In this document: positions 18,007 to 28,108 of the stretch, in pieces
Position numbering within the stretch: position 1 is the first letter of the stretch
Layout: the number at the start of each line of letters is the position of its first letter
Assembly: GCA_025350905.1 (NCBI GenBank)
Contig: JANXWY010000256.1
Coordinates: 1-42,300, forward strand
DNA length: 42,300 nucleotides
Source: Verrucomicrobiota bacterium
Lineage (GTDB): Bacteria > Verrucomicrobiota > Verrucomicrobiia > Limisphaerales > JADLHS01
Direction: 5' to 3'
Translations under genes and position numbers: made by a program
Notes under the pieces: model-generated
What the model was told of the DNA's origin: nothing
Databases searched by the model: none
What the model saw: the letters and a program-made list of their open reading frames with translations, nothing else

Positions 18007-18175
18007 GGTAGGGTCAGCGCGCTGCGCTGACCACCGGCCCGTGCAGGGCCGGAACGAGTTCTATGCAAGGGCACGCCGAACCAGTCGCCATGGCACCGCT
18101 GGACGCGGCGCTGGTCATCGCAGCGCGATGACCCTACCCCCCTGTCGCAGATCATCGCAGCGCGATGACCATACC
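18007..18175. repeat. Cluster of three palindromic REP-like units
   Basis: The 27-base unit at 18007-18033 (GGTAGGGTCAGCGCGCTG and on) is repeated inverted at 18112-18138 with 25 of 27 positions matching, and a third related copy lies at 18150-18175. Each unit is itself a hairpin (TCAGCG...CGCTGA, TCATCG...CGATGA); the changes in its arms are paired, so base pairing is kept. A further GC hairpin, CCGGCCC/GGGCCGG, lies at 18034-18052. The cluster fills the gap before the second sigma-factor gene. Confidence 0.85.
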
Positions 18176-18255
18176 ACCGTGACGCGAACTTCTATTTCGG
18201 CTTCCTTTCAAAATACATTGTCGGAATTCGCCGGCGGCGGTTGTTTAATAAGTGG

Positions 18256-21914: not shown

Positions 21915-22004
21915 GTGGGAACTGGGAAATGCGCGCCGCCGGCAGTCGCATCACTTCTCCCTTCAGGCAAGTTTTGCCTTGTCAGCCCCTGTGGCTTGCG
22001 AACA

Positions 22005-23915
22005 ATGACCTCCGTGAAAGTCTCTCCGCGCATCCTCCTTCGCCTCGTTGTTTTCCTGTCGCTCGCCGTCGGCCGCGTTGGGGCCGTCGACGAAAAAAGC
22101 GCCGACACCAATGCCGTCTGGCTCGCCGAGCATTACACCAAGTACGAACATCGCATTCCGATGCGCGACGGGGTGCGCTTATTCACCCGTGTTTATGTGC
22201 CCAAGGATGACGCTGAGAAATGGCCCATCATGCTCACGCGCACGCCCTATGCCCTGAAGCCGTACGGCACGGACAACTACGAGGATCCGAGTGGCACCTT
22301 TGCCATGCTGGCCCGGGACAAATTCATCCTCGTCAAACAGGACGTGCGCGGACGCTACGCCTCGGAAGGGGAATTCGTTCATGTGCGGCCTTTCAATCCG
22401 AGCAAGGGGCCGAAGGACACGGACGAAAGCACCGACGCCTGGGACACCATTGACTGGCTCGTGAAAAATGTGCCGAACAACAACGGCAAGGTCGGCCTGT
22501 TCGGCATCTCGTATCCCGGCTTCTACACTTCGATGGGGATGATTGACACCCATCCTGCTCTCAAGGCCGCGTCGCCCCAAGCTCCCATTTCCGACTGGTT
22601 CATGGGCGACGATCTGCATCACAACGGCGCGCTTTTTCTCTCTCAAAATTTTGGCTTCCTCTCCTGGTTCGAGCTGAAGTCCGACGACCCGCTGCACGAT
22701 AGCGGCCGGAATTTTGTCTTCCACAATCCTGATGGCTACGACTTTTTCCTGCGCATGGGGCCGCTCGCCAATTCCGACACGGTGCTGTTCAAGAACGCGA
22801 TCCCGGTGTGGACGGAGTTTCTGGCGCATCCGAACTACGACGCCTTCTGGCAGGCGCGCAACATCCGGCCGCACTTGAAGAACATCCGTTGCGCAGTGAT
22901 GACCGTGGGCGGTTGGTTTGATGGTGAAGACCTTTTCGGCGCGCTCGAGACCTATCGCTGGACGGAACGGCTCAACCCCGGCATCACGAATCTGCTCGTC
23001 ATGGGCCCGTGGGCCCACGGCGATTGGGGGCGCAAGGATGGCGACAAACTCGGCAACATCAATTTCCATGCGAAGACGGCCGCGTTTTATCGCGAGCACA
23101 TTGAGCTGCCGTTCTTCCGCCAATTTCTGAAGGGCGCCACCAACGACCCGTTGCCGGAAGCCTACGTGTTCGTGACCGGACTGAACCAATGGCGTCGCTT
23201 CGACGCCTGGCCGCCGCGCGCTGTGCATGAGCAAACGTTGTATTTCCACCCCGGCGGCAACCTAACTTTCACCCCGCCCGCGGAAGCCGCGCCGGCATTC
23301 GAGGAATACGTGAGTGATCCGGCCAAGCCCGTGCCGTTCACGCTTGAGGTGACGACCGGTTATCCGCGCGGCTATCCGGTGCATGACCAGCGCTTCGCCG
23401 CGTCACGGCCCGACGTGCTGGTTTACGAAACGGAACCGCTGGAGGAAGACCTCACGTTTGCCGGTCCGCTCAAAGCCACGCTCTACGTCACCACCACCGG
23501 CACCGACGCGGATTGGGTGGTGAAGTTGATGGACGTTTACGACGCCGACTTTCCGAATCCGGACCCGAATCCCGCGTATGTCGTCATGGGCGGATACCAA
23601 CAGCTCGTGCGCGGCGACGTCATGCCCGCGCGCTTCCGCGACAGCTTTGAAAAGCCCGTGGCGATGACGCCAGGCCAGGTGACGAAGATCGAGTTCACCA
23701 TGCCCGATGTGTGCCACACCTTTCGGCGTGGTCACCGCGTGATGGTGCATGTGCAAAGTTCGTGGTTTCCGTTGGTGGACCGCAACCCGCAGACCTTCGT
23801 GAACATCGCCACGGCGAAACCGGAGGATTTCCGCAAAACCACCCAACGCGTCTATCACAGCAGCAACGCCGCGTCAGCCTTGACGGTGCAAGTGTTGTCT
23901 GCGGCCAAGCCGTGA
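22005..23915 (+). CDS. CocE/NonD-family alpha/beta hydrolase (peptidase S15-like)
   Basis: The 636-residue protein starts MTSVKVSPRILLRLVVFLSL, a signal-like leader. The N-terminal hydrolase domain has YEHRIPMRDGVRLFTRVYVP and the nucleophile motif LFGISYPG (S169), with the acid near GGWFDGEDLFGALETYRW and the histidine in GPWAHGDW. The C-terminal jelly-roll of the X-Pro dipeptidyl-peptidase family is seen as LTFAGPLKATLYVTTTGTDA and GHRVMVHVQSSWFPLVDRNP. Relatives hydrolyse cocaine esters, glutaryl-cephalosporins or peptides; the substrate here is unknown, probably an ester or amide in the periplasm. The end overlaps no gene and is followed by the first REP unit. Confidence 0.92.
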   Translation: MTSVKVSPRILLRLVVFLSLAVGRVGAVDEKSADTNAVWLAEHYTKYEHRIPMRDGVRLFTRVYVPKDDAEKWPIMLTRTPYALKPYGTDNYEDPSGTFAMLARDKFILVKQDVRGRYASEGEFVHVRPFNPSKGPKDTDESTDAWDTIDWLVKNVPNNNGKVGLFGISYPGFYTSMGMIDTHPALKAASPQAPISDWFMGDDLHHNGALFLSQNFGFLSWFELKSDDPLHDSGRNFVFHNPDGYDFFLRMGPLANSDTVLFKNAIPVWTEFLAHPNYDAFWQARNIRPHLKNIRCAVMTVGGWFDGEDLFGALETYRWTERLNPGITNLLVMGPWAHGDWGRKDGDKLGNINFHAKTAAFYREHIELPFFRQFLKGATNDPLPEAYVFVTGLNQWRRFDAWPPRAVHEQTLYFHPGGNLTFTPPAEAAPAFEEYVSDPAKPVPFTLEVTTGYPRGYPVHDQRFAASRPDVLVYETEPLEEDLTFAGPLKATLYVTTTGTDADWVVKLMDVYDADFPNPDPNPAYVVMGGYQQLVRGDVMPARFRDSFEKPVAMTPGQVTKIEFTMPDVCHTFRRGHRVMVHVQSSWFPLVDRNPQTFVNIATAKPEDFRKTTQRVYHSSNAASALTVQVLSAAKP

Positions 23916-23929
23916 GTCGCTATTGATTG

Positions 23930-23953
23930 GTGGCAGCCGACGTAAGGAGGCTC
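23930..23953 (+). repeat. Single REP unit (family I)
   Basis: A 24-base unit starts GTGGCAGCCGACGTAAGG, a copy of the repeat that fills 23.9-28.1 kb. No partner in opposite orientation lies within 200 bases. It is 57 bases before the fusion gene start, 14 bases after the hydrolase stop. Confidence 0.8.
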
Positions 23954-24010
23954 AAACTTTTTTGCTGGAGTCACAGCTGCAAACCCAACGGAAGGGAGTA
24001 GGTTGTCACC

Positions 24011-27000
24011 ATGACCATCACGCCTTCACTCTTCGAGGCATTTCTCAAATGCCCGACCAAATGCTGGCTCCGGTTTACCGGCGAAACGCCGCCCGGCAAC
24101 AGCTACGCCGAATGGGTTGGGACCGAATCAGAATCTTATCGCATCGATGCCGCCAAAAGGTTGATGGCGACCGTGCCCGCGGACGAGTGCGGCCCATCAC
24201 CTGGTAGCAGCCGACGTGAGGAGGCTCATTCGCTCGCCGAAAATCTGAAGGCCGCCCAGTGGCGCGTGGCAACCGACGTTTCGTTGCATACCGAGCTTCG
24301 TAGCAGCCGAGGTCACGAGGCTCAAACCCCTTCCGCTCAACGCTCAACCGTCAACTCTCAACCCACTGATCAGAGCCTCCTCACGTCGGCTGCTACGATC
24401 GTCGAGTCCCGTCTCCACGCCATCGAGCGCATACCATCGGAAGGCCGGGGCAAACCGGCGCAATTCGTTCCCATCCGTTTCATCTACCGCAACAAACTCA
24501 CCAAGGACGACCGATTGCTGCTGTCGTTCGATGCCTTCGTGCTTTCCGAAATGCTCGGCCGCGCCGTCAGCCCCGGCAAAATCATCCACGGCGAGCTCCG
24601 CGACAGCGCTGGTAGCAGCCGAGGTAACGAGGCTCAAACTGAAAAATCGGAAATTGGAAATCCGAAATCGGAAATTAGTCAGAGCCTCCTCACCTCGGCT
24701 GCTACTCACAATGGGGTAGGTGAACCACAAACCGGGATTGCAGCCGCTCTCGGCCAAGCCCATCCACGGGTAACGAAGGTCAAGACCCCGGCCCTGGCCG
24801 GCGAAGTGCGGAAACGCCTCGAGAAAATGACCGCGCTGCTCGCCAGCCCCGCGCCGCCCGATCTCGTCCTGAACCGGCACTGCGCCGAATGCGAATTCCA
24901 GGCGCGCTGCCGGAAGATCGCGGTGGAGAAGGACGACCTCAGCCTGCTGGCCGGCATGAGCGCGAAGGAGCGCCAGCAACTCCGCAGCAAAGGCATCTTC
25001 ACCGTGACACAGCTCTCCTACACATTCCGCCCGCGCCGCAGATCCAAACGGCAGCGCGATAAACGCGAGAAATATCATCACTCGCTCAAGGCGCTGGCGA
25101 TTCGGGAAAAGAAAATCCACATCGTCGGCAGCCCGGAACTCAAGATCGAAGGCACGCCTGTCTATCTGGATGTCGAAGGCCTGCCCGACCGCGATTTCTA
25201 CTACCTCATTGGCCTGCGTATCGGCCAGGGCGAAGCTGCCGTCCAGCACAGCCTGTGGGCGGACACCGTCGCGGACGAGGGAAAGATTTGGCAGGAATTC
25301 CTCGCCATCCTCGAAACCGTCAAAAAGCCGGTGCTGATTCACTACGGGAGTTACGAGACAACTTTTGTGAAAAACATGGCGGAGCGTCACGGCAGCCCAG
25401 AGGCCGAATCAGTTGCGGCTAAAACGCTCGCCTCGGCTCTCAATCTCATCTCGGCAATGTTTTCGATAATTTACTTCCCGACCTATTCCAACAGCCTCAA
25501 AGAAATCGCCCGACACTTGAATGTTGAATGGTCGGAAGCAGGCGCATCAGGAACGGGTTCGATTGCTTGGCGGCGGGACTGGGAGAAATCACGATTAACT
25601 GTTTTGATGCAGAGGCTGATCACGTACAACACCGAAGATTGTATGGCCCTTGCTCGACTGCACGGCCATCTCGGTGATTATTCAGTGAATGGCGACACAA
25701 CCACATGTGCTAAAGATGTTGTTCATGCCGATTGCCTGCCACGCAATTTTCCATGCACTTTCAAGAAGAATCAGTTTCAGTTCGCAGAGTTTGAACAAAT
25801 CAACCAAGCCGCCTATTGGGATTACCAGCGCGAGAAGGTTTTGGTCAAATCAAGCGAACGATTGAAGCGAATCGCCCAGAAGATTGGTCCAAAAATAAAG
25901 CTGAAACCCCGTATCAATAAAATCGTTGAATGGCCCGGACCGACCGCATGCCCTAAGTGCGGTGCGCTCAAGATTTACAGGCACCAGGCTGAACGCAAGA
26001 CTTTGGTTGACGTCCGATTCAGTTTTGGAGCCATCAAAAGATGGACAACGAAAAACCTATTCCATCGCTATAGATGTCCGAAGTGCAGGATAATTTTCCG
26101 CAACTCTGAATGCGCTTGGGATGGCCACAAGTTTGGGCCCAACCTGCGAGCGTTCTGTGTATATCAAACTATTGAACTGAGGCTACCCCAGCACCAGGTG
26201 ACCGCATTCGTCAACTCGCTTTTCAATTTTCAACTTTCAGCCACTATCGTGAATAAGTTCAAGGAAAGCGTGGCAGCTTTCTATCAAGAAACTCACGAAG
26301 CGCTGATGCAGGCCATAATCGATGGACCTTTAGTTCACGCGGATGAAACTAAAGTGAGTTTAGGTGGGCAAATTGGCTACGTCTGGATCTTCACGAATCT
26401 CGAATCGGCAGTTTATTTGTATTCTCCGTCTCGAGAAGGCGAACTCGTTCAACGCGTCTTGAAGGATTTCGATGGCGTGCTTGTTTCGGACTTTTATACG
26501 GCTTACGATTCTCTGAGCTGCGCTCAACAGAAATGCTTGATTCACCTCATACGGGACTTGAATGATGACGTGTTCAAAGAACCGTTTAATACCCAGTTCA
26601 AAGAGCTGGTTGCCAAGGTAGCAACCCTCCTCAAGCCGATGATCCAAACAGTTGATCGTTTCGGACTAAAGACTCGATTTCTGCGCAAGCACAAGGCCGA
26701 TGTGGGTCGGTTTTTCAAGTGGCTGTCCCTCCGGGAATATCGAAGCGAGACGGCTTTGAAGTGTAAGCAGCGATTGGAGAAGAACCGTAACACTCTCTTT
26801 ACATTTCTCGACCACGATGACATTCCGTGGAACAACAACAATGCGGAGCACGCGGTCAAAGCGTTTGCGCTGCTGCGTCGGAATTTCGCTGGACTCTCGA
26901 CCGAAAAGGGAATCAAGGAATACTTGATCCTCCTAAGCGTCTGCCAAACCTGCAAATACATGGGCGTGGACTTTCTGGATTTCCTCCGTTCCGGGGAAAA

Positions 27001-27112
27001 GGACATTCACGCCTTCGCGGAAAGCCGGCGCGGACGCAAACAGCGGACGCCATCCAGCCAACCGCCCGATTTGCCCGGGAGCGCAACCCCGGGCAGCGGC
27101 GGCCCACCCTAA
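24011..27112 (+). CDS. Cas4/RecB-like nuclease + RNase H-like nuclease + IS66-like DDE transposase fusion
   Basis: One uninterrupted 1033-residue frame holds three enzymes. Residues 1-300: a TM0106-type RecB/Cas4-like PD-(D/E)XK module (SLFEAFLKCPTKCWL; D174 in LLLSFDAF; Cys C14, C291, C294, C300 positioned for a 4Fe-4S cluster). Residues 380-550: a DEDD nuclease of the RNase_H_2 type (YLDVEG with D387 and E389; ITYNTEDC with D543). Residues 590-1000: an IS66-like transposase with a zinc finger (C647, C650, C689, C692) and a full DDE triad in HADET (D778), VSDFYTAYD (D827) and WNNNNAEH (E946). In-frame REP insertions lie at residues 65-73, 97-129 and 201-232. No IS66 companion ORFs or terminal repeats are visible. 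The gene lies among REPs and is followed by a RAYT. The 25.4-26.9 kb part has lower GC than the rest. The fused product's function is unknown. Confidence 0.85.
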   Translation: MTITPSLFEAFLKCPTKCWLRFTGETPPGNSYAEWVGTESESYRIDAAKRLMATVPADECGPSPGSSRREEAHSLAENLKAAQWRVATDVSLHTELRSSRGHEAQTPSAQRSTVNSQPTDQSLLTSAATIVESRLHAIERIPSEGRGKPAQFVPIRFIYRNKLTKDDRLLLSFDAFVLSEMLGRAVSPGKIIHGELRDSAGSSRGNEAQTEKSEIGNPKSEISQSLLTSAATHNGVGEPQTGIAAALGQAHPRVTKVKTPALAGEVRKRLEKMTALLASPAPPDLVLNRHCAECEFQARCRKIAVEKDDLSLLAGMSAKERQQLRSKGIFTVTQLSYTFRPRRRSKRQRDKREKYHHSLKALAIREKKIHIVGSPELKIEGTPVYLDVEGLPDRDFYYLIGLRIGQGEAAVQHSLWADTVADEGKIWQEFLAILETVKKPVLIHYGSYETTFVKNMAERHGSPEAESVAAKTLASALNLISAMFSIIYFPTYSNSLKEIARHLNVEWSEAGASGTGSIAWRRDWEKSRLTVLMQRLITYNTEDCMALARLHGHLGDYSVNGDTTTCAKDVVHADCLPRNFPCTFKKNQFQFAEFEQINQAAYWDYQREKVLVKSSERLKRIAQKIGPKIKLKPRINKIVEWPGPTACPKCGALKIYRHQAERKTLVDVRFSFGAIKRWTTKNLFHRYRCPKCRIIFRNSECAWDGHKFGPNLRAFCVYQTIELRLPQHQVTAFVNSLFNFQLSATIVNKFKESVAAFYQETHEALMQAIIDGPLVHADETKVSLGGQIGYVWIFTNLESAVYLYSPSREGELVQRVLKDFDGVLVSDFYTAYDSLSCAQQKCLIHLIRDLNDDVFKEPFNTQFKELVAKVATLLKPMIQTVDRFGLKTRFLRKHKADVGRFFKWLSLREYRSETALKCKQRLEKNRNTLFTFLDHDDIPWNNNNAEHAVKAFALLRRNFAGLSTEKGIKEYLILLSVCQTCKYMGVDFLDFLRSGEKDIHAFAESRRGRKQRTPSSQPPDLPGSATPGSGGPP
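24204..24227 (+). repeat. Single REP unit inside the fusion gene
   Basis: A 24-base copy beginning GTAGCAGCCGACGTGAGG lies in frame in the fusion gene, coding for GSSRREEA at residues 65-73. The nearest opposite copy is in the next REPIN, so it may be a single unit or a decayed pair. Confidence 0.85.
24300..24396. repeat. REPIN in the nuclease coding region (residues 97-129)
   Basis: A forward unit (24300-24323, subtype GAGGTCACGAGG) and a reverse unit (24373-24396, subtype of GACGTGAGGAGG) enclose a 49-base spacer of CTCAA-type repeats. The 97-base REPIN stays in frame and adds about 33 residues ending SLLTSAATI. The flanking homologous residues, TDVSLHTE and ESRLHAIERIPSEGRG, would otherwise be adjacent. 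Confidence 0.9.
24612..24705. repeat. REPIN in the nuclease coding region (residues 201-232)
   Basis: A forward unit (24612-24635, GAGGTAACGAGG subtype) pairs with a reverse unit (24682-24705, hybrid GAGGTGAGGAGG), 46 bases apart. The spacer contains short purine-rich repeats such as AAATCGGAAATTGG. The 94-base insert adds GSSRGNEAQTEKSEIG and SQSLLTSAAT to the protein without a stop. Confidence 0.9.
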
Positions 27113-27117
27113 CCTTC

Positions 27118-27265
27118 GTAGCAGCCGACGTAAGGAGGCTCATTCTAATTTCTGCGATGGATGCGGGGCGATGATTGACCACTCCGGTTAGAATATAAGG
27201 CCACGAGACTTGCATCGATTCGCATTTAGGAATTCCAGTCAGAGCCTCCTCACGTCGGCTGCTAC
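27118..27265. repeat. REPIN upstream of the RAYT gene
   Basis: A forward unit (27118-27141, GACGTAAGG) and a reverse unit (27242-27265) frame 100 bases. It lies between the fusion gene stop (27112) and the RAYT start (27320), so this is the intergenic content here. Confidence 0.9.
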
Positions 27266-27319
27266 GAAAGCATTGGCTCTGGATTCTCCGGGGCTTGCAC
27301 CGTACGATGGCGCAGCGCC

Positions 27320-27901
27320 GTGAATGAACCAAACCTCAATCGCGCTTTCTATCTCCCGCGCCTTCCCCGCGAGTATTACCGGGGCGACGCCGTAGTACAT
27401 TGGACGCTTTCTGTCTCGCATCGCCGACGCGGTTGGCTGGATGAACGGTTTCACGCCGCGTTCCGCGAACTGATGCTGCACGCCGCCGCCCGCGAGGGCT
27501 TATTCTGCCCGGGGTATTGTCTCATGCCGGATCATTTGCATCTGGTCTGGATGGGCCTGCGGCTGGATTCCGACCAACTCAACGGCATGGCCTTCCTCCG
27601 AACGCACCTCAAACTCCAACTTGCGCCGCAGAAATTCCAGCATCAACCACATGATCATGTGCTCAAGGAAGCGGAGCGCCAGCGGAACGCGTTTGCCAAG
27701 GTCTGCAATTACATCCTCGCAAATCCGTTGCGGGCTGAACAGGTGGAGCATCCGAACGAATGGCCGTTCACCGGGGCCATCGTGCCGGGCTATCCCACGC
27801 TGCATCCATTGCAAAACGATTTTTGGTCGAAGTTTTGGAAGCTTCATGCGCAGGCGAAGCATGCAAATGCAGGGGAAATTATTCGCCCGCCTATCAAATA
27901 A
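27320..27901 (+). CDS. REP-associated tyrosine transposase (RAYT), IS200-like Y1 family
   Basis: The 193-residue protein has the single-strand HUH motif as MPDHLHLVW (H72, H74) and the catalytic tyrosine in CNYILANPLR (Y131), the standard Y1 transposase layout (about 60 residues between). RAYTs cut and join single-stranded REP hairpins. The start is GTG at 27320 (no ATG in that frame). REPINs of one family lie on both sides (27118-27265, 27911-27993, 28031-28108), and these start with GTAG, or GTGG, matching the tetranucleotide known in RAYT-recognised REPs. The gene is intact and of normal length, so it is the best candidate for mobilising the local REPs. Confidence 0.92.
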   Translation: MNEPNLNRAFYLPRLPREYYRGDAVVHWTLSVSHRRRGWLDERFHAAFRELMLHAAAREGLFCPGYCLMPDHLHLVWMGLRLDSDQLNGMAFLRTHLKLQLAPQKFQHQPHDHVLKEAERQRNAFAKVCNYILANPLRAEQVEHPNEWPFTGAIVPGYPTLHPLQNDFWSKFWKLHAQAKHANAGEIIRPPIK

Positions 27902-27910
27902 ATAGCCGCC

Positions 27911-27993
27911 GTGGCAGCCGACGTAAGGAGGCTCTGAATGCCTTTGTGGGGAAAGCTGGTCGGAGAAGTGAGCCTCCTCACGTCGGCTGCTAC
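27911..27993. repeat. REPIN directly downstream of the RAYT gene
   Basis: A forward unit (27911-27934, GTGGCAGCCGACGTAAGG) and a reverse unit (27970-27993) enclose 35 bases. It begins 10 bases after the RAYT stop codon. Confidence 0.9.
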
Positions 27994-28030
27994 CGAGAAT
28001 GGGCGCAGCCATCGCAGCCACCCATTCAAT

Positions 28031-28108
28031 GTAGCAGCCGAGGTCACGAGGCTTTGACTCTCCTCATCGTTGTTCCTTCAGAATGAGCCTCCTTACGTCG
28101 GCTGCTAC
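28031..28108. repeat. Second REPIN downstream of the RAYT gene
   Basis: A forward unit (28031-28054, subtype GAGGTCACGAGG, ending GCTT) pairs with a reverse unit (28085-28108, subtype GACGTAAGG) 30 bases apart. It ends 50 bases before the stop of the next gene. Confidence 0.88.

Follow-up and report, generated by a model that had tools for sequence, protein, structure and literature searches.

We analyzed a 42,300-nucleotide stretch of DNA from a Verrucomicrobiota bacterium (contig JANXWY010000256.1, hereafter the window) and found a gene at 24011-27112 that joins a nuclease-type module to an IS66-type transposase in one protein. This fusion is genuine and conserved, and no accident. Judged by its pattern of sequence identity, the gene is also a mosaic, in which a transposase core (codons ~450-970) appears to have been exchanged repeatedly between a conserved N-terminal module (N-module) and a conserved 3' tail. 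With somewhat more confidence than doubt, we take the gene to encode the transposase of an IS66-superfamily lineage that is compact and horizontally mobile, consists of a single gene and has a built-in DNA-end-processing module. The Cas4-fold/DEDD/IS66 architecture is a variant on known parts; the N-module/core/tail mosaic is new. We found no description of such a nuclease-module/IS66 transposase fusion in the open-licence full-text literature.

The gene is a single uninterrupted frame that starts with ATG and encodes 1033 residues with zero internal stops, as an earlier note on this DNA had described. Pfam models matched the protein at residues 384-554 (RNase_H_2) and 708-969 (DDE_Tnp_IS66). 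The NCBIfam model TIGR03491 (TM0106 family) matched at 251-550 with 174.9 bits, exceeding its curated cut-off and bearing out the TM0106 relationship that the earlier note had mentioned. The IS66 model NF033517 matched at 639-993 with 192.3 bits against a cut-off of 180. A sequence search of the PDB with the fused protein gave zero matches. AlphaFold2, run on the alignment of 52 members described below, returned a model with a mean predicted local distance difference test score (pLDDT) of 82.3 and a predicted template modeling score (pTM) of 0.57; because of the latter value, the relative placement of the domains is left uninterpreted. Foldseek searches and Z-scored alignments of the predicted parts gave the Cas4/Cas1 chain 7mi4_A as the best match for residues 1-308 (Z 17.7, 188 aligned, 3.0 Å). 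For residues 381-566 the match was to family B polymerase exonuclease domains (Z about 15), and for residues 627-985 it was to the ISCth4 transposase 6xgx_A (Z 14.9, 319 aligned, 7.0 Å).

The conservation of the fusion was assessed across homologous loci. A scan of GTDB genomes yielded 206 candidate stretches, of which tblastn confirmed 192 as relatives and the best 80 were kept. We used 92 loci, 52 of which hold full-length intact frames and form the basis of the residue counts; the other 40 rows were excluded, either for a start or end that defied placement or for a broken or short frame (8 of the 92 rows were of the latter kind). All 52 full-length members matched both TIGR03491 and the IS66 model (E <= 0.001). 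Residues C14, C291, C294, C300, D387, E389, D543, C647, C689, C692, D778 and D827 were invariant in this set, and E946 (51/52), C650 (49/52) and D174 (48/52) were nearly so. The Cas4-like cysteines (C14, C291, C294, C300), the zinc finger at C647-C692 and the DDE triad (D778, D827, E946) proposed earlier are upheld by these counts. The ratio of nonsynonymous to synonymous substitution rates (dN/dS) ranged from 0.128 to 0.357 in the N-module (median 0.196, 132 pairs with dS below 1.2) and from 0.135 to 0.224 in the core (median 0.166, 11 pairs with dS below 1.2). Both parts are therefore under purifying selection.

Such a frame could also have arisen by sequencing artefact or by a fresh IS66 insertion that struck an intact gene for a TM0106 nuclease, and the drop in GC content to 0.48 at 25501-27000, against ~0.60 in the surroundings, would fit such an origin. 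However, all 52 full-length members, from about ten phyla, have the same junction, and no standalone TM0106 gene over the cut-off was found in 57 genomes (the window's own and its relatives in the order). We ruled this explanation out on the strength of the shared junction and regard its probability as negligible. The earlier note had named an unshared junction, a stop or frameshift between the two parts, or a fresh IS66 insertion as grounds for abandoning the fusion; because the homologues share the junction, these grounds fall away, and neither a stop or frameshift nor a fresh insertion was found.

We compared the Cas4-like domain with seven canonical TM0106 proteins (L211, L212, L213, L214, L216, L218 and L221), six of which have frames of about 995-1152 residues and one of 494. 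Three further candidates were omitted from this set: L215, which was in the wrong frame, and L217 and L220, which we judged by eye to be fusion members. The acid position of the D-x-K motif, R160 in the window, is Asp in 7/7 canonical proteins and acidic in 0/52 fusion members; K162, next in the motif, is retained in 49/52. The upstream motif Asp (D89) is present in all seven canonical proteins, and fusion members carry Asp in 32/52 and Glu in 3/52. D174, which had been listed with the Cas4-like cysteines, aligns with Tyr in 7/7 canonical proteins and not with a catalytic Asp. Because the D-x-K acid is lost and the four cysteines are kept in all 52 members, the Cas4/RecB PD-(D/E)xK nuclease site of the fusion family is, on this alignment, degenerate, with its Cys cluster preserved. 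The "nuclease-nuclease-transposase" label given earlier is therefore right about the fusion, but two active nucleases are unsupported because of this degenerate site.

The DEDD domain appears intact. Its acidic set of D387, E389, E/D449 and D543 is complete in 52/52 members, with Glu at position 449 in 48 and Asp in 4; the motif as first described, with D387, E389 and D543, was correct but incomplete, since E449 is also needed. DEDD motif residues mark Exo I-III, and 3'-5' exonuclease activity is predicted for this domain. As a separate observation, N478 (25442-25444) is Asn in 52/52 fusion members and Asp in 7/7 canonical TM0106 proteins.

We compared the fused protein with known systems. It has the domain order of the TM0106/COG2251 family (TIGR03491; Cas4-like DUF83 plus RNase_H_2), with a Cas4-fold domain followed by the DEDD domain. 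The canonical seven keep D-x-K, whereas the fusion family has lost it and has an IS66-type transposase as its partner. Passages of one paper (PMC3985635) describe a PD-(D/E)XK-like DUF83 domain in COG2251, predict 3'-5' exonuclease activity for COG2251/PF13482 and report COG2251 proteins with tandem AAA domains; these passages make no mention of a nuclease-module/IS66 transposase fusion. Like IS66 insertion sequences, the fused protein has a zinc finger and a DDE core, and it is 22% identical to the ISEc8 transposase. Unlike them, it has a ~600-residue N-terminal extension, and its gene lacks TnpA/TnpB partners and recognised terminal repeats. TnsA-TnsB fusions of Tn7-like and CRISPR-associated transposon (CAST) elements likewise unite a nuclease fold with a DDE transposase within a single polypeptide. 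Both halves of those fusions come from other families; the protein described here has a degenerate endonuclease-type site and carries an additional exonuclease domain.

Cas4 and DnaQ-like exonucleases act with Cas1-Cas2 in CRISPR adaptation, and the fused protein similarly combines a Cas4 fold, a DEDD trimming fold and an integrating enzyme. Here, however, the joining enzyme is a DDE transposase rather than Cas1, and the Cas4 site is degenerate. A CRISPR-like array is absent from the window (no family of direct repeats exceeds 2 copies at a spacing of <=120 nt; cas genes were not searched), in keeping with the earlier caution that a Cas4 relationship does not imply CRISPR. The Cas4-like iron-sulfur domain might grip a DNA end or a single strand but leave it uncut, after which the DEDD domain would trim the 3' end and the DDE core would join the trimmed end to target DNA. 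Such end-holding and trimming before DDE strand transfer is the most likely role; the data shown are predicted folds, motifs and selection. As a single chain, such a transposase would lend itself naturally to both the preparation and the insertion of DNA ends, with parts of the kinds used in CRISPR adaptation.

Identity at fourfold sites changes along the gene. Between the window and 13 members, it was 0.75-0.87 in 8 of 10 codon windows within codons 271-435 (the remaining two gave 0.55-0.58), fell to 0.16-0.50 from codon windows 451-480 to 946-975, and rose to 0.70-0.76 over 976-1020; over codons 1-210 it was 0.39-0.72. In protein identity, L087 and L046 share 0.90 at 125-440 and 0.34 at 455-970, and the window's protein shares 0.89 with L087 in the N part and 0.46 in the core. 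The corresponding values for the window and L025 are 0.79 and 0.74. The nearest neighbor of the N part is not that of the core in 38/52 members. A step model placed the 5' break at median codon 452 (interquartile range 450-468; 45 pairs). In 39/52 members the N-module exceeds the core in GC content at third codon positions, a contrast that is suggestive and was not used as proof. Homologous recombination through the conserved ends would be the simplest cause of this pattern, with cores being swapped when resident and incoming copies meet. Recurrent core swapping between fixed ends offers a rare, testable view of transposases changing engines.

The distribution of the family is patchy. TIGR03491 matches over the cut-off were present in 7 of the 57 genomes, and every one was a fusion. 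Among five same-genus genomes, only G004 has a piece of the gene, at a contig end. In a phylum sample of 387 genomes, 5 matched at E <= 1e-30, 3 of them with the fusion. The family is scattered across about ten phyla, and the matches listed include at least two plasmids, both cyanobacterial. The gene on Acaryochloris marina pREC4, which is typed as conjugative, is annotated "TM0106 family RecB-like putative nuclease" (span 255-1014, 74% of the query), and the gene on Calothrix p4 is annotated "transposase IS66, putative" (span 206-1002, 77% of the query). Because each of these plasmid genes is named by one half, the family is hidden in annotation. Multiple divergent copies per genome occur in G057, G058, G063, G064 and G065. 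Two loci titled Betaproteobacteria (L059) and Deltaproteobacteria (L080) share 90% DNA identity over 2402 nt, beginning ~100 nt 5' of the ATG. In the pairs examined, similarity mostly extends no more than 100 nt upstream of the ATG and about 45 nt beyond the stop; the exceptions are pairs with shared flanking DNA. The core tree intermingles phyla, needing 25 label changes for 10 phylum groups (shuffled mean 28.1). The fused gene thus appears to have spread laterally across phyla.

Neighboring genes are seldom shared. Among 85 loci with a flanking open reading frame, 34 locus pairs have one in common within 4 kb. These are chiefly loci with a gene for a REP-associated tyrosine transposase (RAYT; REP, repetitive extragenic palindrome), namely the window locus, L029, L046, L077 and L087, and pairs of near relatives (L054/L089, L088/L091 and L094/L098); the scattered rest includes L040 and the window. 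In phage records, 13 of 50,697 matched the fused protein, none across 80% of the query, and no relative was found in viral contigs.

A less probable reading, which we nonetheless take seriously, is that the gene encodes a domesticated host enzyme for DNA processing or defence, whose transposase part no longer moves its own gene and which has spread via plasmids and recombination. The absence of IS66 terminal repeats and accessory genes, the single copy in the window's genome and the purifying selection on N-module and core are consistent with this reading. So is the N-module tree, in which Verrucomicrobiota require 5 label changes as opposed to 10 in the core tree. Its patchy presence (7/57 genomes; 3/387 in the phylum sample), the few shared neighbors and the broken or short rows argue against it, and models of defence systems matched nothing in the fused protein beyond weak Cas4/DEDDh similarity. 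A one-off domesticated transposase, as the earlier note had suggested, fits poorly, given that the family occurs patchily, appears to have crossed between phyla, is present in several copies in some genomes and includes broken copies. A mobile transposase with an added DNA-processing module is the best fit.

Several results weigh against the mobile-transposase reading. Some phylum signal remains in both trees: with 10 phylum groups, the core tree needs 25 label changes against a shuffled mean of 28.1 (11/200 shuffles as low), and the N tree, more clearly, needs 19 against 28.2. Inverted repeats were no better than in mismatched flanks in 44 of the 47 loci with flanks; the three exceptions are the window and L077, which have REPs, and L035, which has another repeat. 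No TnpA was found in the 92 loci and one TnpB lay ~4 kb off (L100), in a search that found its positive control. The window itself has no TnpA or TnpB match, as the earlier note had observed of IS66 accessory frames. Neither a target duplication nor an empty site was found in relatives. Two same-genus genomes have the upstream gene and one also has the downstream gene, with homology ending at 23919-23921 and 28158; because these two genes are on different contigs, no joined empty site was found. The gene is single-copy in the window's genome, contigs of metagenome-assembled genomes (MAGs) may be mis-binned, the 45 breakpoint pairs are not independent, and the 3' break is fuzzy. Separately, direct repeats of 44-47 nt flank the fusion gene in L107 (311-3599) and L148 (1-3549; Shewanella-titled MAG). 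These repeats adjoin an apparent tRNA 3' end, and the contigs may be tandem or circular.

The 3' tail is conserved at the DNA level. At least 85 of its last ~126 bases match at 85-97% in 25 of 39 listed places outside the window's genome, while most verrucomicrobial relatives have whole proteins just 54-73% identical to the window's. Among 320 genomes of the order, 28 have the tail, with only two candidates scored per genome. We examined 33 tail loci. One had no tail by BLAST, and 11 of the other 32 had no fusion core in the fetched ~1.5 kb; among these 11, L233 starts inside the tail of a fused gene and L253 is a 24-nt match. Run against 144 non-duplicate loci, a tail profile gave 93 matches in 81 of them. 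On nine contigs there are between two and four tails, 21 in total (12 additional), and every one is co-oriented.

In six loci, the core is absent and other genes, or nothing, lie between the N-module and the tail. These cargo genes, and those between successive tails, are listed in Table 1. The N piece and tail of L263 nearly abut. In L267, the N-module ends at ~codon 430, an IS630-like frame begins soon after, and this frame ends just 5' of the tail. The DDE_3 transposases between N-module piece and tail are at 2713-4769 in L265 and 5237-6682 in L267, and the gene after one of the two matches a 5'-3' exonuclease below the cut-off. Solo co-oriented tails with toxin- or antitoxin-like genes between them occur in L255 (7191-8044), L256 (5578-8051) and L257 (4156-5036), where the fetched stretch holds no fusion gene.

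These arrangements raise the prospect of cassette capture, in which the tail would be a recombination site, genes would be inserted 5' of it in integron-like arrays, and the fused protein would be the recombinase. We consider this doubtful. The co-oriented tails and the cargo fit the model. A toxin- or antitoxin-like gene is present in 9 of 18 intervals (L260 by eye), a raw count without a background rate, and a same-strand gene stops within 30 nt of the tail in 8 of 18. In L046 the tail is non-coding DNA directly past the core's own stop. However, co-orientation is also produced by tandem duplication, and tail DNA folds no better than shuffled sequence (z -0.65 to 0.51 in the four stretches tried). 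We rejected an attC-like hairpin identity for the tail on this basis, and it differs from integrons in this respect. The 5' edge of the tail varies from model position 2 to 62, and the window's genome has one tail only. The prediction that solo N-terminal fragments would lead to cargo and a tail failed in all three testable cases: none of the five fragments had a tail within the sequence fetched, and two of the five lie at contig ends. From these contrary results, we treat the tail as an unexplained observation and no proven system.

A bolder reading, to which we likewise give little credence, is that the fused protein is a one-chain capture-trim-integrate machine that mimics Cas4/DnaQ/Cas1. 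The N-module would bind the tail as a fixed site, any DDE core (IS66- or IS630-type) would catalyze, and tail-bounded cassettes would collect genes such as toxin-antitoxin modules. If this were true, integrons and CRISPR adaptation would have a counterpart built on a DDE enzyme.

REP units lie around and inside the gene. Eleven units of the GTAG type lie at 23930-28108, five of them inside the frame, and none was found elsewhere in the window (<=3 mismatches). They belong to a genome-wide family of 128 units in the 6.27-Mb genome. The three in-frame segments (residues 65-73, 95-124 and 196-250) are missing from most of the 52 members and are mostly disordered. Although the fused gene is single-copy in its genome (489 contigs), four other matches there fall within residues 88-130 and 193-245 and coincide with REP-encoded segments. 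The REP units near the gene are not IS66 terminal repeats. The earlier statement that no terminal repeats are visible holds for repeats of the IS66 type, but it passed over the REP units; the in-frame REPs, the neighboring RAYT and the N-module/core/tail mosaic were all overlooked. As side observations, L207 (6660-7961, minus strand) and L270 (4624-5454) have repeated peptides in their N-module linkers which, by eye and in translation, resemble in-frame copies of a different, local REP family.

REPs with a GTAG tag, an adjoining RAYT and some copies within coding sequence are known, and a REP-rich verrucomicrobial species is named, in passages of PMC3733652. The window shares these features of REPtrons and is in this respect an ordinary one; the distinction is that a RAYT adjoins the fused gene in several relatives. 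RAYT homologs occupy the equivalent position in L204, L205, L029 and L046, and in these loci and the window a REP pair begins 5-8 nt past the end of the tail frame and is followed by the RAYT. The solo tails could be by-products of REP/RAYT (REPtron) mobilization in which the fused gene's 3' end was taken along, an explanation we find improbable. This shared arrangement agrees with it, as does the presence of a window-type REP within 230 nt of 11/93 tails compared with 3/296 background windows, and of a strong hairpin within 160 nt of 9/88 tails compared with 3/192 windows (Fisher p 0.002). However, 82/93 tails have no such REP and 79/88 have no strong hairpin, and just 4/24 solo or extra tails have one. 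The tail as a REP/RAYT passenger is only partly supported.

Table 1. Features of the fused gene and its surroundings in the window (positions), and cargo genes at other loci (locus handles). Cargo lies between successive tails or in the interval from an N-module piece to a tail.
Feature	Position or locus	Strand	Basis or remark
REP unit 5' of fused gene	23930..23953	+	
Fused gene: Cas4-fold/TM0106 module, DEDD exonuclease, zinc finger, IS66-type DDE transposase	24011..27112	+	frame, Pfam/NCBIfam models, alignment, predicted structure
Cas4 fold, residues 1-308 (C14, C291, C294, C300 kept; PD-(D/E)xK site degenerate by alignment)	24011..24934	+	alignment; Z 17.7 to Cas4/Cas1 chain 7mi4_A
In-frame REP-derived segment, residues 65-73	24203..24229	+	occupied in <30% of 52 members
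In-frame REP-derived segment, residues 95-124	24293..24382	+	pLDDT <50 at 101-125
In-frame REP-derived segment, residues 196-250	24596..24760	+	pLDDT <50 at 198-248
Predicted DEDD 3'-5' exonuclease fold, residues 381-566 (D387, E389, E449, D543)	25151..25708	+	RNase_H_2 match, alignment; Z ~15 to family B polymerase exonuclease
Usual break in N-module similarity to other members, codons 446-460	25346..25390	+	fourfold-site identity, step model
Zinc finger and DDE transposase core, residues 627-985 (D778, D827, E946)	25889..26965	+	models, alignment; Z 14.9 to ISCth4 transposase 6xgx_A
3' tail, conserved in DNA, solo copies elsewhere	26936..27060	+	BLAST, tail profile, fourfold-site identity
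Inverted pair of REP units, the first 6 nt past the stop codon	27118..27265	.	
RAYT-like gene	27320..27901	+	model match below cut-off
Three more REP units 3' of RAYT gene	27911..28108	.	
Cargo: PemK/MazF	L255		between tails
Cargo: Gp49, helix-turn-helix (HTH) and ParE	L256		between tails
Cargo: DUF433 and DUF5615	L257		DUF5615 also in L033
Cargo: HNH, ParD and ParE	L083		
Cargo: ParE	L057		
Cargo: PIN	L264		
Cargo: ankyrin protein	L207		
Cargo: DDE_3 (IS630-type) transposases	L265, L267		
Cargo: no family recognised	L206		

Two further observations concern the rest of the window. The upstream neighbor of the fused gene, at 21984-23915, is an S15 peptidase gene (X-Pro dipeptidyl-peptidase type) that ends 95 nt 5' of it; two close orthologs in the genus (G001 and G004) have other DNA downstream. 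A 37-nt repeat is present as a tandem pair at 18109-18182, with its copies 84% alike.

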